In this document: in pieces, positions 3,879 through 32,358 of the stretch
Numbering within the stretch: position 1 is the stretch's first letter
Layout of the letters: each line of letters starts with the position of its first letter
Virus record (IMG/VR): IMGVR_UViG_3300027963_000208
Location: 1 to 32,358 of that record
DNA length: 32,358 nt
Source of the DNA: a virus
Strand: one strand, 5' to 3'
Notes under the pieces: model-generated
The model's input: only the letters and a program-made list of their open reading frames with translations
Database searches by the model: none
Told to the model about the DNA's origin: nothing
Program-made: the position numbers and the translations under genes

Positions 3879-4072
3879 TACACACCCTCTTTCTTAACCA
3901 TCTGATTAACAACATTATAAACAAACGACAACAACGCCGCAACACCAGCCACACCAGCAGGCTTCAACGCACCCCACGAATCAAGATTCTCCACACCAGT
4001 CACAACAAGCACAGCCAATCCAGCCTGAAGAAACGTCAACACAGCACGAATAAAAATATTCTTCCAATCCAT
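3878..4072 (-). CDS. Holin, r1t-like (64 aa)
   Basis: A holin makes membrane lesions that let the endolysin reach the cell wall. The protein starts MDWKNIF, has a first hydrophobic helix (LTFLQAGLAVLVVTGV, about residues 12-27), then a Gly/Ala-rich second helix (AGVAGVAALLSFVYNVV) and a short charged tail. The two-helix layout and the LKxAGVAGVAALLS-type segment resemble phage r1t holins of Gram-positive phages; this is by eye. I chose the internal ATG at 4072 because AAGGAG lies just upstream; the longer frame to 4141 would only reread the 3' end of the upstream gene. No endolysin is recognised nearby. Confidence 0.78.
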   Translation of the reverse strand: MDWKNIFIRAVLTFLQAGLAVLVVTGVENLDSWGALKPAGVAGVAALLSFVYNVVNQMVKKEGV

Positions 4073-4337: not shown

Positions 4338-7300
4338 TCATAATACGATCAATATCATCAGCAGTCAACCTGCCCAACTCCGCATTAGACGGATACATAT
4401 CCGCCAACCCCTGCATAATACGCCTAATAATAGCCGGATCAGCATTCTTACCATAAGTAGGCAACAAAACATTCTCAATAAAAAACTTAGCCTGACGATA
4501 TTTAGTCAGAGCGTTAATAGCCTTAGTCTTAGCAGACTCAAAAGCATCTGCCTGACCCGCAACAAGACGACCCGCATCCCGAGCCTGCTGTTGCATAGCC
4601 TTATCCAACTCCGTAGGACCAAGTGAATAAACACGAGAAGGAGAAAACGCATTAAAAATACCAGCCATACTAGTAGGACTATAATTAGTACTCAACTTCT
4701 CCTTAGGAAGTGTCAACTTAGTAGACGTAGGATCCTCAGGATCAGCCAAAAAGTCTTCAACACTATTAATATTTCTTAAAGCATTAAGATCAGCATCCGT
4801 TTTAAACAAGTTAATACCAAGACTAATAGCAGGAAACGCAGCATACATATCCTTATAGTATTGTGCAGCACTCTTATTACGCTCTTCCTCTCGAAGAGGA
4901 TAACCAGTAAGCGGATTAACACCATAACTACGCGAAAACAAACCAGTAATATAAGGGTTAGTACCCGCAGTAATAGGCTGAATACTTCTAAGACTAGGAT
5001 CACCAGTAAGAAACCCTGCAACAGCAGCAATGTTACGCCCAGTAGTAGCAAAAGGATTAACACTCTCAACATTAAGAACATTAACTTTTTCAGGATCAAA
5101 ACCTAAAAAGTTTGCTACATCACCAGTAAACGGAACAGAACCAAGCAACCAGTCTGGCAAACCACCCGCCTCAAGAATCTGCTCATACCCATAATTACCA
5201 AGATTAGCAGTAAGATTAGCAGTAATAGGACGATCCTGAAGAAGCCGTTTAGTAAACAAAGCACTATGCCTAGTCCAAGCATAAAAAGGAAGAAGAAAGT
5301 TACGCGCAAACTTTTCAGAAGGACTAAACCAACGATAATTACCAACAACACTATCAGCCGCATAACGCATCTCACGCAACATAAACTCATTATAATACGG
5401 ACTATTAGGATCAGCAATCATACGCAAAGCAGTATGAAACTTAGTCATCTTATTAATAGCAAGACCCGGAATAGGAACATTAGAAGCCTCAGCAACAACA
5501 TCACTATCCATAAAAGCCCTAAATAATGGTTGACTTAAAGCGCTCTGCTTAAGAATACTAGCCCTTATAGCGCCCTCAAAAGCAAAAGTAATAACATAAC
5601 CAAAACTAGTCACACCACGAGCAAACTTACCACCAATACGAGTAGCCTTATTTTTAAGAAGCGGCCTAACAAACCTACCTACACTAGGAGCACGTTTACT
5701 AAGTTCATTAACAGCCCCAGAAACACTAGCACCCAACTCAGTATTATCTTCCATAAAAATATCGTGATGAAAATCATCAGAAAACACTTCTTTAATAATC
5801 ATAGTATCATCGCCCAATTCGGACAAAGACTGAAGTTGTTCTCGATCTTCACGACTAAGTTTTTGTCCAAGACGATCAGCCTGTTTCAAAGCATTCTTAG
5901 CACCCTTACTAAACATATCAGCCATAACTTGCATTGCCCACTCAGGACGAGCAAGCATCAACATAGTATTAGTACCAAAAACATTCTGTTGAAGAAACTT
6001 AGGATTCATAGAAAGCACAAGCATTTTAAACAAGTTATTAACCAACTGCATTGTTTTAACAGCCAGATTATTAGAACGCCGACTAGCCTCACCAAACTTA
6101 TTATAAATACCACGCGGAATAACCATAATAGTACTATTAGGATCCGACAACCCAAGCGCAGCATAACGATCACCAATATCACTAGCCGCCATATTAGCAA
6201 GATCATTAGGATTCATTAAATCAATAAAATCCTTATCAACATATTTAGACGACAAGTCAGTCTCCCAATCAGCAAGCCTAGCCGTACGATGCTCAGCCAA
6301 CGTAGTACTCATAACATCAAAATAATTCATAGTAACTTTAAACTTCTCAACACCCTGATCCATAATAGACTCAACAAAACCCTTATCAGTCGCATCCATA
6401 CCAGAACGATGCCGATAAGTACTAGCATACGCCTCAGCAGACTCTAACGTATCAAAAATACGTTGAGTAATAAGAGGAACATAAGCATCAGGATTATCCA
6501 AATAATCTTTTACAGTAATAGGAACAGCCTGCTCATTAATAACATCATCATACAAAGTCTCAACACGACGAGCAGTAGCACGAGCACTACCATTAAGTTG
6601 CACATCAAACTGGTAAGAAGCAAGACCAGAACGAATAACCTCATTACGATTAATCTTCAAATCAAAATCCTCATTACCCCGCATATCCCTAGTACTAATC
6701 TTATCAATAAAATCTCTAGCATTAGGAAACATCTTATGCATCTTATTAGCAATAGCAACTTCAATACTAATACGAGCATCAGCAGGCTTATTATACTTTA
6801 ATTTACCTGTACGACTAGTAGCAAAGAATTGTTCTGGAAGATAAAACACATCATCACTAAGCAAATGTTTACGATCAAAACTCATATTAGAATCATCAAA
6901 CAACCCTTGAATCCGCAAAGCGCGAACAGGATAAAAACGAGTAGTAGACGCAACCTTACTTTCAACACGAGCATTAGCAACAGTAACATCCTCAATAACT
7001 CGTTTAGGAACATTAGGAAGATTAATAGGCTTTAAATTAGGATCCATAAACACTATAGGACGACCACCAGACTCTCTAGCAGCCAAATCATTATTTAAAC
7101 GAGCAAGAGCCGCATTAGACCTATCAATAAGAACCTTAACCTCAGGAATACTAGTATCAACAAACTCTCCACGAGCATTAGGAAGATCCTCCATACCAGC
7201 ATCAAGCATATCAGTAAGACGAATATTAGGATTCAAAATAGGGACAGCCCTACTATGCAAAACATCAGAACCCTCCTTACCTAACTCTCTAACCACATCC

Positions 7301-20576: not shown

Positions 20577-20603
20577 TGGGAGAGGGGCAAAGCCCCTCTC
20601 CCA
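20577..20603 (-). terminator. Triloop stem-loop after the capsid gene
   Basis: Perfect 12-bp arms (TGGGAGAGGGGC and its complement) enclose AAA on the plus strand, TTT on the minus strand. It lies nine bases after the capsid stop. On the minus strand it is followed by ATTCTTC rather than a T tract, so it probably acts as a partial terminator or as a 3' stabiliser that raises capsid mRNA over downstream genes. Same loop size and closing pair as the operon terminator at 1641. Confidence 0.75.
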
Positions 20604-29704: not shown

Positions 29705-29899
29705 CCAAACCACCCCCAAACATAAGAATAATAAAAAAACACCCCACTACAATACTATACGAAACTTATCCAACAAAAGTAACAACAAAAACTAAAATTA
29801 ACACAACCTTAACATAACATAACCATAATAAGCCAAACTCAAAAAACACCAAAAATATATGTAGCATAATATATAGTGTGTGTGAGATTGATAACGGGG
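29705..29899 (-). promoter_or_regulatory. Leader and presumed promoter region of the late operon
   Basis: About 180 bases upstream of the first late gene are A/C-rich on the plus strand with no supportable reading frame. A TATAGT element on the minus strand near 29752-29757 could be a -10, but no convincing -35 lies at 16-18 bases, and a phage-specific promoter may be used instead. The plus-strand A/C bias ends near 29880 where the palindromes start, so this is where transcription direction changes. Confidence 0.35.
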
Positions 29900-30334
29900 A
29901 TACTACTTTGTAGTATTATATACAGTTATGGTGGGTATAATCGTAGATTATAGTAAGAGCCTAGTATGCTTATACAACTCTGTTGTATTAGGGGATGCCT
30001 ATAACCTACAGTTATAGGATGATGACTAGTACTACCTTCGGTAGTAAGATATACTTATACCCTTATACTAAGAGTAACTACTCTTAGTATATATATATAT
30101 AGAGTCTTCGACTCTATAAGAATTCTTTATGGTACCAATAATGATAGTAATATCAATTGATATTACTATTGTTTCTACTACCTTTGGTAGTAGTAGCCTT
30201 ATACTACGGAGTAGTATAAGTTTTGTTTATGTTGGTTTATTGGTTCACTACGAAGTAGTGTTTGGTTAGTATCGAAGATACTAGTTTTTGTCTCAACGTA
30301 GTTGAGATACGCATGTTATCCATCTTCGATGGAT
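29900..30334. repeat. Array of 14 different triloop palindromes in the divergent control region
   Basis: Perfect inverted repeats at 29900-29916 (loop TTT), 29936-29952 (GTA), 29972-29988 (TCT), 29998-30018 (CTACA, a C·A mismatch around TAC), 30030-30046 (TTC), 30064-30091 (13-bp arms, AC centre), 30098-30118 (TTC), 30144-30169 (26-base perfect palindrome), 30175-30193 (TTT), 30198-30220 (GGA), 30246-30260 (GAA), 30267-30283 (GAA), 30291-30307 (GTA) and 30318-30334 (TTC). Arms are 6-13 bp; 232 of 435 bases are paired. All eleven true triloops are closed by C-G. Stem sequences differ, though ACTAC next to the loop recurs in five. No reading frame is supportable here. A TA-dinucleotide run lies at 30088-30101. 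Confidence 0.93.
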
Positions 30335-30352
30335 TGGGCTGAGATTTATATA

Positions 30353-30400
30353 CTCTCTAAATAAATATCTGAACGAAGTGAAGATATTTATTATAGAGAG
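30353..30400 (+). promoter_or_regulatory. Long hairpin, copy 1, before the zinc-finger early gene
   Basis: Lower stem CTCTCTA/TAGAGAG (7 bp), one unpaired A on the right side, 11-bp upper stem (AATAAATATCT with its complement), then apex GAACGAAGTGA, which can form tandem G·A pairs, two base pairs and a GAA triloop. It is preceded by TATATA and followed by ATAAAGGGGA, the SD of the gene starting at 30418. Possible roles: mRNA 5' stabiliser, RNase III-type processing site, or protein-binding cruciform. Confidence 0.88.
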
Positions 30401-30417
30401 ATAAAGGGGACGGAAAA

Positions 30418-30834
30418 TTGCTGAATCGCAGTATCAACGAAGTTGAGGGAGCATTCGAAGAATGGTTGGAGTCTTTGTCTCCGGAGGAGACTGCCGAGTT
30501 CTTCGAAATGGTTGCTCGTGATCTTGATAGCATCGAAGATGCTAAGGGTGTTCAGATCGTCGAAGACGATGAATGTGTTGCTCCGAAGGAGGAGATTGTG
30601 GAACCGAAGGTTGCTGTGAAGAAGACGAAGTGCCGCTGCTGTGGCTTTGCCAAGAAGCATTACCGAGTGAATGCCGAAGGCATTTGCAAAGTTTGCTACG
30701 TTGCGTTGGCTACGTCGGATAGTAACTCTGTTACTATCGTTGGTCGGCAGGGCAAGAAGGGTCACAACACTGTAAGTGTTGTAGTCGGTGGGACTCGTGT
30801 GAAAGTCTCTCGTAAGGTACGGCTTGACTCGTAG
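30418..30834 (+). CDS. Early zinc-finger-like protein carrying DNA triloop palindromes (138 aa)
   Basis: TTG start, seven bases after AAGGGGA. Residues 1-60 are acidic and helical (EWLESLSPEETAEFFEMVAR). A Cys cluster at 72, 74, 75, 90 and 93 (KCRCCGFAKK, GICKVC) looks like a treble-clef-like or zinc-ribbon finger. The C-terminus is basic (TRVKVSRKVRLDS), suited to nucleic acid binding. Eleven short palindromes run through the gene, most with the loop as a whole codon. As the first rightward gene after the control region it may be a regulator, but no family is recognised. Confidence 0.8.
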   Translation: MLNRSINEVEGAFEEWLESLSPEETAEFFEMVARDLDSIEDAKGVQIVEDDECVAPKEEIVEPKVAVKKTKCRCCGFAKKHYRVNAEGICKVCYVALATSDSNSVTIVGRQGKKGHNTVSVVVGGTRVKVSRKVRLDS

Positions 30835-31405: not shown

Positions 31406-31612
31406 ATGAGCGAAGATATGACGTATATTATTGAGTGGAATGATGATGTGCTTAGCAATGCTGATTATTGGGCATTGGAATCCTACGAATATGTAGCACA
31501 AGAGGCTGGATTCGTAGAGGATCTCATGGATTATGTGCAAGGCATGGGTTACGATTGGAGTGATGTAGCGCATGTGCAAGAAGTCAATTCGGCAACGGTA
31601 TATACTCTCTAA
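31406..31612 (+). CDS. Small acidic early protein (68 aa)
   Basis: Reads MSEDMTYIIEWNDDVLSNAD and continues acidic and aromatic to VYTL. GAAAGGG lies eight bases before the ATG. Its last codons and TAA stop form the left base of the second long hairpin (31605-31652), so gene end and regulatory stem overlap. No family recognised. It shares style, not clear homology, with the 66-residue protein upstream. Confidence 0.72.
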   Translation: MSEDMTYIIEWNDDVLSNADYWALESYEYVAQEAGFVEDLMDYVQGMGYDWSDVAHVQEVNSATVYTL

Positions 31613-31652
31613 TAATTACTCTGAACGAAGTGAAGAGTAATTATATAGAGAG
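31605..31652 (+). promoter_or_regulatory. Long hairpin, copy 2, before the ArdC-like gene
   Basis: Same 48-base design as the copy at 30353: identical TATATA prefix, CTCTCTA/TAGAGAG base stem, single bulged A at 31645, identical apex GAACGAAGTGA and identical ATAAAGGGGA suffix. The 11-bp upper stem is different (ATAATTACTCT), with six of eleven positions changed and all pairs kept. This covariation between two loci shows the structure, not the sequence, is selected. Confidence 0.9.
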
Positions 31653-31667
31653 ATAAAGGGGAACAAA

Positions 31668-32358
31668 ATGAAGAAGAAGTTTGACATTGCAGAGGTTCAC
31701 GCTGAGATTACCGAAGGGCTGATTGCCTTGATGGAATCTGGTGTGGCACCATGGTCTAAGCCGTGGATTGTTCGTGGTAGGGATGATGCTATGATGCCTC
31801 GTAATGGTATTAGTAATCGTGTATACACAGGGTTTAATAGCATGTACCTGTCGTTTCTCGTTGAGCAGAATGGTTGGAATGATCCACGATTCTACACGAT
31901 GAATAGCCTAGGTGAGGGTATGCAGGTGAAGAAGGGTAGCAAGTCTACGATGGTGATCTATAATAAGGCTACTAAGCGTGACGTTGAGGATGAGGCTACG
32001 GGTGAGGTTGAGACTAAGACTTCGTGGTTTCAGCGCTACTACAGGGTTTTTAATGGCTCGCAGATTGATGGTCTTGATACCTTCGAGTTGCCTGAGGTAG
32101 AGGTTGATGGTTATGATCATGAGCATGATGAGTATGGTGAGGCACAGTTGATTACGGCTGAGTGGTGTGATACGCTGAAGCATGGTTTGATTCATGGTGG
32201 TGATCATGCATTCTACACTCCACAATTGGATGGTATTACAATGCCTGATCTTGACCAGTTTAAGACGCTAGAAGATTACTACCACACCCTGTTCCACGAG
32301 ATTGCACATAGTACGGGGCATGAGTCTCGCACTAACCGGCTTGATCTTGGTACGTTTG
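31668..32358 (+). CDS. ArdC-like anti-restriction protein, 3' end outside window
   Basis: Probably protects incoming DNA from host restriction and may bind single-stranded DNA. The first 230 residues are present and open to the window end. Residues 1-110 match the N-terminal ArdC/ssDNA-binding style (LIALMESGVAPWSKPW, PRNGISNRVYTGFNSMYL, QVKKGSKSTMVIY), followed by an acidic spacer and a metallopeptidase domain with LFHEIAHSTGHESRTNRL, where His210, Glu211 and His214 make HExxH. ATG follows AAGGGGA and sits behind long-hairpin copy 2. Such genes are common early genes of phages and plasmids. Confidence 0.9.
   Translation, partial: MKKKFDIAEVHAEITEGLIALMESGVAPWSKPWIVRGRDDAMMPRNGISNRVYTGFNSMYLSFLVEQNGWNDPRFYTMNSLGEGMQVKKGSKSTMVIYNKATKRDVEDEATGEVETKTSWFQRYYRVFNGSQIDGLDTFELPEVEVDGYDHEHDEYGEAQLITAEWCDTLKHGLIHGGDHAFYTPQLDGITMPDLDQFKTLEDYYHTLFHEIAHSTGHESRTNRLDLGTF

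Follow-up and report, generated by a model that had tools for sequence, protein, structure and literature searches.

A dense array of DNA mini-hairpins, mostly of one loop class, spans the leader and the first early gene in a clade of podovirus-like phages

The window analysed here, a whole viral record of 32,358 bases, carries an array of about 22 mini-hairpins over about 0.9 kb, which spans the leader of the early region and the first early gene (gene 1). From the comparative data alone it is evident that the relatives keep the pairing and a loop rule of DNA type, while the sequence, the strand orientation and even the encoded residues change. We give an even chance to the reading of this array as a DNA-hairpin zone of the early region, that is, an extruding control or origin zone that is kept perfect by template switching.

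Genome and locus setting

The phage is podovirus-like and carries a P22-like portal, a large terminase and a fragment of a class II ribonucleotide reductase. Its host is likely actinobacterial, since the portal and capsid distantly match those of Arthrobacter, Microbacterium and Cellulosimicrobium phages (about 25–38% identity). The structural and late genes run leftward (− strand) from 29719, the early genes run rightward (+ strand) from 30418, and the strand asymmetry flips its sign at about 30 kb, the same spot as the change in gene direction. Gene 1 (30418–30834, + strand, 138 codons) encodes an early protein with a CxCC...CxxC zinc-ribbon-like motif and begins with a TTG start codon, which is aligned to ATG in the relative L003. 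The protein has no Pfam or PHROG match; gene 1 was not found in bacterial genomes, and neither gene 1 nor gene 2 was found in named phages. An AlphaFold2 model calculated from 12 sequences has a mean pLDDT of 63.6, with the zinc ribbon and a β part at about 70–85, and a Foldseek search with this model returned nothing meaningful. Rfam and tRNA scans gave no match.

Other features of the window are recorded here for completeness. An early gene at 31668–32357 combines an ArdC N-terminal domain with a zincin metallopeptidase of the anti-restriction type and is truncated by the contig end. Two 12-bp G+C-rich triloop hairpins (1641–1667 and 20577–20603) resemble intrinsic terminators.

The leader array and its boundaries

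The leader part of the array (29900–30334) contains 14 perfect mini-hairpins with stems of 6–12 bp and loops mostly of 3 nt. When tri- and tetraloop repeats with stems of 6 bp or longer are counted across the whole 538-bp leader (29880–30417), the total is 13, compared with a mean of 0.64 and a maximum of 4 in dinucleotide shuffles. Folded as single-stranded DNA, the leader gives z values of −11.7 for the + strand and −11.9 for the − strand relative to the shuffles. The first-pass annotation had confined the palindromes to gene 1; they do lie there, but this scope is too narrow, because the array begins about 520 bp upstream of the gene.

To the left, the block at 29720–29879 is AT-rich, hairpin-free and conserved in the relatives (AAAAATATAT... 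TATAATTATATATATGTG, then AACGGGG), and no inverted repeat of at least 6 bp was found in these 160 bp of non-coding DNA; the block separates the late (−) from the early (+) genes and is probably their promoter zone. At 29740–29902, nearly all of the relatives share an AT-rich block with AACGGGG as its end, where the array begins on the left; it is a candidate promoter or origin core. To the right, the 1524 bp following gene 1 contain no perfect hairpin with a stem of at least 6 bp. No cluster of DnaA boxes was found in the array region, where neither DnaA boxes nor AACGGGG repeats exceed chance.

Palindromes within gene 1

At a stem cut-off of 5 bp, eight perfect triloop inverted repeats were counted in gene 1 (in-gene stems, 5–9 bp), and the loop is exactly one codon in seven of them. 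Lowering the cut-off to 4 bp gives 13 repeats in the gene, 12 of which lie within 30434–30782 and eight of which are codon-phased. The earlier count of eleven triloops, eight of them codon-phased, is therefore essentially correct, the exact number varying with the stem cut-off. Synonymous-codon shuffles (n = 1000), which keep the protein and the codon counts and were scored for stems of at least 5 bp, yielded a mean of 0.78 repeats and a maximum of 4 (p = 0.001), so the excess over codon-preserving shuffles stands; codon-order shuffles gave a mean of 0.32. The same enrichment occurs in 13 of 13 homologues of gene 1 (p from 0.001 to 0.011). As a control, 19 other ORFs of the window were analysed; a nominal p of 0.03 was obtained for the major head gene, and none of the others was significant.

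The hairpins follow each other along the gene. Near the start, tcaac-GAA-gttga (30434–30446) and cattc-GAA-gaatg (30452–30464) are codon-phased, and gtctcc-GGA-ggagac (30477–30491) is not. The next, tagcatc-GAA-gatgcta (30528–30544), reads acctcatc-GAA-gatgaggt in L003, with three compensated pairs in the aligned stretch, and atcgtc-GAA-gacgat (30556–30570) reads atcttc-GTA-gaagat in L070. The hairpin aatgcc-GAA-ggcatt (30670–30684), encoding NAEGI, is identical in 13 of 13 aligned homologues. Further downstream, gatagtaac-TCT-gttactatc (30718–30738) corresponds to ggtaac-GAA-gttacc in L070 and acggt-GAA-accgt in L004, and acaacact-GTA-agtgttgt (30764–30782) is the last strong hairpin of the array.

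Relatives with and without the array

Relatives were gathered from viral contigs in scans that used gene 1 and gene 2, the head protein and a conserved leader motif. The window and 13 related loci carry the array at the same place, each with 7–14 leader hairpins and 3–11 gene hairpins, and the gene 1 proteins of the array-bearing loci are 44% to 90% identical to that of L070. Leader arrays are also present in L058, L063 and L014, the contigs of which stop before or within gene 1. In L084 and L085, which have gene 2 and a different first gene, there are only a few weak palindromes of AT type. No array was found in the named distant relatives Jasmine, Shocker and ctEqG8, nor in the scanned stretches of G013 and G004, which share the head gene; the matching region of G004 may lie off the contig. 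A pattern scan for GTGTGTGRG..AACGGGG mostly returned unrelated contigs.

Several observations on these relatives stand apart from the array itself. At 2316–2789 of L100, gene 1 and gene 2 apparently form one fused ORF, with the zinc-ribbon part followed by the VKRL...KAHVTDIVSP part. The near-identical genes of L072/L074 and L075–L077 differ by a swapped segment in the C-terminal part of gene 1 (YMALATSGGESVTVV versus YVTLATASPDEAIVVV), which contains a palindrome in one form and none in the other. Judged by eye from the translations, the early regions of L097 and L098 appear to contain a DNA polymerase A-like gene in pieces with a glycosyltransferase-like gene between, a dUTPase, an SSB-like protein ending in GDDFPF, a TOPRIM/RepA-like helicase, a sigma-like pair and a metallophosphoesterase.

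Drift of the arms and persistence of pairing

We compared 124 distinct pairs of orthologous perfect triloop hairpins. In 82 pairs the arms differ and are perfect nevertheless, and in 90 pairs the loops differ. Examples between relatives are gagtc-TTC-gactc versus gagta-GAA-tactc, atacaac-TCT-gttgtat versus atacaac-AGA-gttgtat, and ctgttac-ATA-gtaacag versus ctattac-TAT-gtaatag. The arms of different hairpins are unrelated in sequence and form no repeated family, single palindromes are gained and lost between relatives, and the arms are more conserved than the spacers in only four of six close pairs.

Two sites illustrate how far the encoded protein follows. The SNSVT codons of the window, AGT AAC TCT GTT ACT, are replaced by GGT AAC GAA GTT ACC in L070 and by GAC GGT GAA ACC GT in L004 and L039; in the L072 group, GCC ACC TCT GGT GGC lies a few codons upstream of the site. 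Across the relatives, the palindrome is re-formed with other centres and other residues. NAEGI is encoded by AAT GCC GAA GGC ATT invariantly in 13 homologues, although AAT and ATT are minority codons elsewhere in the same genes (4/44 and 9/62 of the respective codons). L100, a more distant relative, has the residues GANGV here, and its palindrome tgcaaac-GGA-gtttgca lies one codon further on.

These comparisons bear on how the palindromes arose. The first-pass annotation proposed that they shape the protein, and this holds: lineage-specific in-frame palindromes occur in the length-variable N-terminal part, and the NAEGI codons are fixed. Its suggestion of in-frame insertion fails as a general rule, because the homologue alignment shows that the palindromes are mostly re-formed in place via compensated substitutions and shifted centres. 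It had also named, as a refuting observation, homologues that keep the residues without the palindrome; such cases occur at single sites (NTVSV in L039, L072 and L078), but not for the whole set.

Loop class and codon phase

Among the distinct leader triloops, 61 of 66 read R-N-A, 35 of them on the + strand and 26 on the − strand, compared with 36 of 97 background triloops of the same genomes (Fisher p = 1e-13). A C–G pair closes 55 of the 66 leader triloops versus 27 of the 97 background triloops (p = 2e-12), and G–C closes only one leader triloop. The gene 1 hairpins behave similarly, with R-N-A loops in 22 of 26 and C–G closure in 22 of 26. When the loops change, they stay in one class, 5′-C(R-N-A)G-3′ on either strand: 79 of the 90 changed loops remain within it, 43 of these 79 switch strand, as expected from an orientation-blind constraint, and 18 are exact inversions. 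In phage N4, the C–G closing pair together with the 5′ G and 3′ A of the three-base loop is required for supercoil-driven extrusion, and this requirement works through a sheared G·A pair (PMC4496689). Read from the sequences, the rule of the array corresponds to the N4 rule widened to A at the first loop position.

Over seven lineages, the repeats fall into the three codon phases as 39/9/1, and synonymous shuffles by themselves give 59/24/17%. If a whole codon forms the loop, each arm codon pairs its third base with the first base of its partner, and 2–2 is the sole fixed pairing; the most restrictive phase, which ties first to second positions, is nearly absent and is also the rarest in the shuffles. 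The long coding palindromes of nematomorph mitochondria likewise avoid the most restrictive phase (PMC6649704). Since the synonymous shuffles already favour the phase in which the loop is a codon (59%), the phasing is mostly a by-product of coding freedom; thus, the codon-phased pattern noted in the first-pass annotation is real, but coding constraint largely accounts for it. The phasing is sharpened by GAA, GTA and GGA being ordinary codons and by C being easily available at third positions.

DNA-level or RNA-level structure

The annotation left open whether selection besides coding acts on DNA or RNA structure. A constraint on the nucleic acid is borne out, and the structure is very probably kept at the DNA level, because G·T pairs are almost absent, the loop orientation is free and the mRNA folding signal is weak. 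Stems with one mismatch are rare, and a single G·T is no commoner than a single A·C. The comparison of folding energy with codon-preserving shuffles, which the annotation had proposed, makes the gene 1 mRNA only weakly better than its synonymous shuffles (z = −1.98) and the antisense strand much more so (z = −5.1); an RNA helix on the transcript would give the opposite pattern, and hence the feature is taken as DNA-level. The alternative is that the hairpins structure the 5′ leader and the mRNA of the early transcript, in stability, translation control or protein binding. It is true that all of the hairpins fall within the first early gene or before it, and the GAACGAAGTGA leader element precedes the start codons of several early genes by about 28–42 nt. 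Nevertheless, we regard this RNA-level role as improbable: G·T pairs are nearly missing where RNA helices would allow them, 43 of the 79 in-class loop changes switch strand, the loops are not of GNRA or UNCG type, and the fold signal is weaker on the mRNA than on the antisense strand. Helices tolerant of G·U and loops conserved on the transcribed strand, by which structured RNA is recognized, were not found, and there was no Rfam match.

A repeated leader element before early genes

The last hairpin before gene 1 belongs to a distinct element (30353–30401, + strand), which consists of an outer CTCTCT/AGAGAG, a variable inner stem of 11 pairs and a constant cap, CTGAACGAAGTGAAG; its full layout is TATACTCTCTAA – stem – CTGAACGAAGTGAAG – stem – TATAGAGAGATAAAGG. 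A second copy lies at 31605–31655 (+ strand; recurrence position given as 31623), and its core ends 34 nt upstream of the ArdC-like gene (31668). In the relatives the element is also found ahead of two or three early genes, in most cases some 34 nt upstream of the start codon (for example, at 3934, 5503 and 6498 in L039 and at 4540, 7098 and 8088 in L080). Among 17 distinct copies from the window and the relatives, pairs 1–8 are always Watson–Crick with two to four pair types each, and no G·T occurs in pairs 1–11. The cap could fold as T-GA-AC(GAA)GT-GA-A, with tandem G·A mismatches under a C(GAA)G triloop. This strand-specific element has the look of a promoter or leader signal used early in this clade.

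Proposed mechanism and alternatives

In the reading that we prefer, negative supercoiling of the incoming genome would make the hairpins extrude as small cruciforms; alternatively, they would fold on single strands when replication opens the region. Extrusion is suggested because C(GNA)G loops permit it, and the match of the loop rule to the N4 extrusion rule is the best indication of it. Template switching between the arms during replication would repair and rewrite the stems in single events, which would account for the perfect arms, the inverted loops and the in-frame re-formation of palindromes without a change in length. The extruded state would be used, most likely in the control of the early region or in the start of replication, and selection for this state would keep the array here, within gene 1 too, where synonymous freedom would be spent on hairpins and would produce the codon-phased look. 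The parts of this proposal differ in strength. The upkeep of the stems by template switching is likely: perfect arms with few imperfect intermediates, compensated changes of several bases and exact spacer inversions between relatives were all found, and template switching is known to homogenize arms and invert spacers, coding sequence included (PMC8604942, PMC8794818). Extrusion with a function in early control or as an origin, to which the position of the array points (it lies between divergent gene blocks, at the skew switch), is a reasonable possibility that falls somewhat short of an even bet. The array is non-random, occupies one place per genome, persists in the relatives, is strictly Watson–Crick compensated and has a loop class indifferent to strand, all of which support the proposal. 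The missing DnaA-box cluster and the coincidence of the skew switch at about 30 kb with the change in gene direction are counterpoints to an origin role, and the turnover of palindromes between relatives, a counterpoint to selection, also fits a purely mutational process. That only four of six close pairs have arms better conserved than spacers likewise speaks against the proposal.

Such a process is the most serious competitor, although we consider it rather unlikely. The locus would be a hot spot of template switching, for example at a replication start where single strands are long exposed, and the hairpins would have no function. Template switching is recognized by homogenized arms and exactly inverted loops (PMC8604942, PMC8794818), single palindromes turn over, and a repeat-conversion process was favoured by the authors who described the coding palindromes of nematomorph mitochondria (PMC6649704). 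Template switching alone, however, poorly explains the confinement to one zone through much divergence, and selection for the extruded state is favoured for this reason: the array keeps one position per genome in relatives at about 44–90% protein identity next to a hairpin-free non-coding flank, the loop class survives many changes, and NAEGI is kept at every synonymous site in 13 homologues. Dyad symmetry would also suit an array of operators bound by a dimeric protein, perhaps that of gene 1 with its zinc-ribbon-like motif; gene 1 accompanies every strong array that reaches that far, and L084 and L085, with another first gene, have only the weak AT-type palindromes. We find this quite improbable, since there is no common half-site beyond the closing C–G, the stems range from 5 to 12 bp or more, and the variation of the arms is fully compensated, a feature for which binding to a specific sequence has no need. 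Still less credible are early promoters of the N4 type, read through the hairpins by a virion RNA polymerase. The C(GNA)G loop rule, the early-region location and the podovirus type are shared, and the repeated leader element before early genes has C(GAA)G, but the hairpins are far too many, the array has no common flanking sequence, the GNA loop of the leader element is on the coding strand rather than on the template strand as in N4, and, in a genome that is incomplete, no RNA-polymerase match was found by sequence for the 1969-residue virion protein.

Comparison with known systems

Biologically functional DNA hairpins in double-stranded DNA genomes are few, and the N4 promoters are the textbook case. 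The baculovirus hr regions are palindromes clustered in a control region, where they act as origins or enhancers and share a conserved sequence; the clustering is alike, but the array shares only structure and loop class. REP elements are short bacterial palindromes that form a sequence family, and the palindromic elements of Rickettsia lie in frame within genes (PMC6649704). Whereas the REP and Rickettsia elements are sequence families, the array has no family and its pairing does not decay; the reading as insertion elements was rejected since no sequence is shared.

The early-promoter hairpins of N4 resemble those of the array in being small, with 3-nt loops, C–G closing and G/A loop ends, and in lying in the early region of a podovirus (PMC4496689). 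In N4 the hairpin structure resides in the DNA and is extruded by negative supercoiling (PMC4496689). However, N4 has three promoters with a conserved sequence and a virion RNA polymerase, whereas here about 22 sequence-unrelated hairpins occur in either orientation, also within a gene, and no such polymerase was detected; a conserved promoter sequence with a template-strand GNA loop at each site was not found. The coding palindromes of nematomorph mitochondria are likewise perfect in functional genes, with imperfect ones almost absent, and are gained and lost between species (PMC6649704). Those palindromes reach 284 bp, are scattered over the genome (PMC6649704) and lie in genes, whereas the array starts in non-coding DNA, has stems of 5–12 bp and a strict loop class, and is confined to one zone; perfect in-gene repeats and phase avoidance are thus found in both, but long dispersed arms are not. 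Template switching in yeast genes and RNA hairpins shows the same compensated arms, inverted loops and GAA/TTC spacer inversions within codons (PMC8604942, PMC8794818). These events are sporadic, whereas here they are repeated at one locus throughout the clade and the loop class is kept.

Each ingredient of the array has a precedent, but no description of such a DNA-hairpin array was found in the literature searched. We tentatively raise the possibility, with the balance against it, that this dense, strand-indifferent array of sequence-independent, loop-class-restricted DNA mini-hairpins represents a new class of genetic element, based on extrusion under supercoiling or from single strands in a phage early region, imposed on a coding gene and maintained by template switching; in that case, selection across the whole clade would have made C(R-N-A)G a code of DNA structure. 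If the array is selected, it provides a natural, evolution-tested library of extrusion-competent hairpins, in which DNA secondary structure competes with protein coding. A mutational origin would make it a strong natural record of template switching and would point to a locus of unusual DNA exposure.
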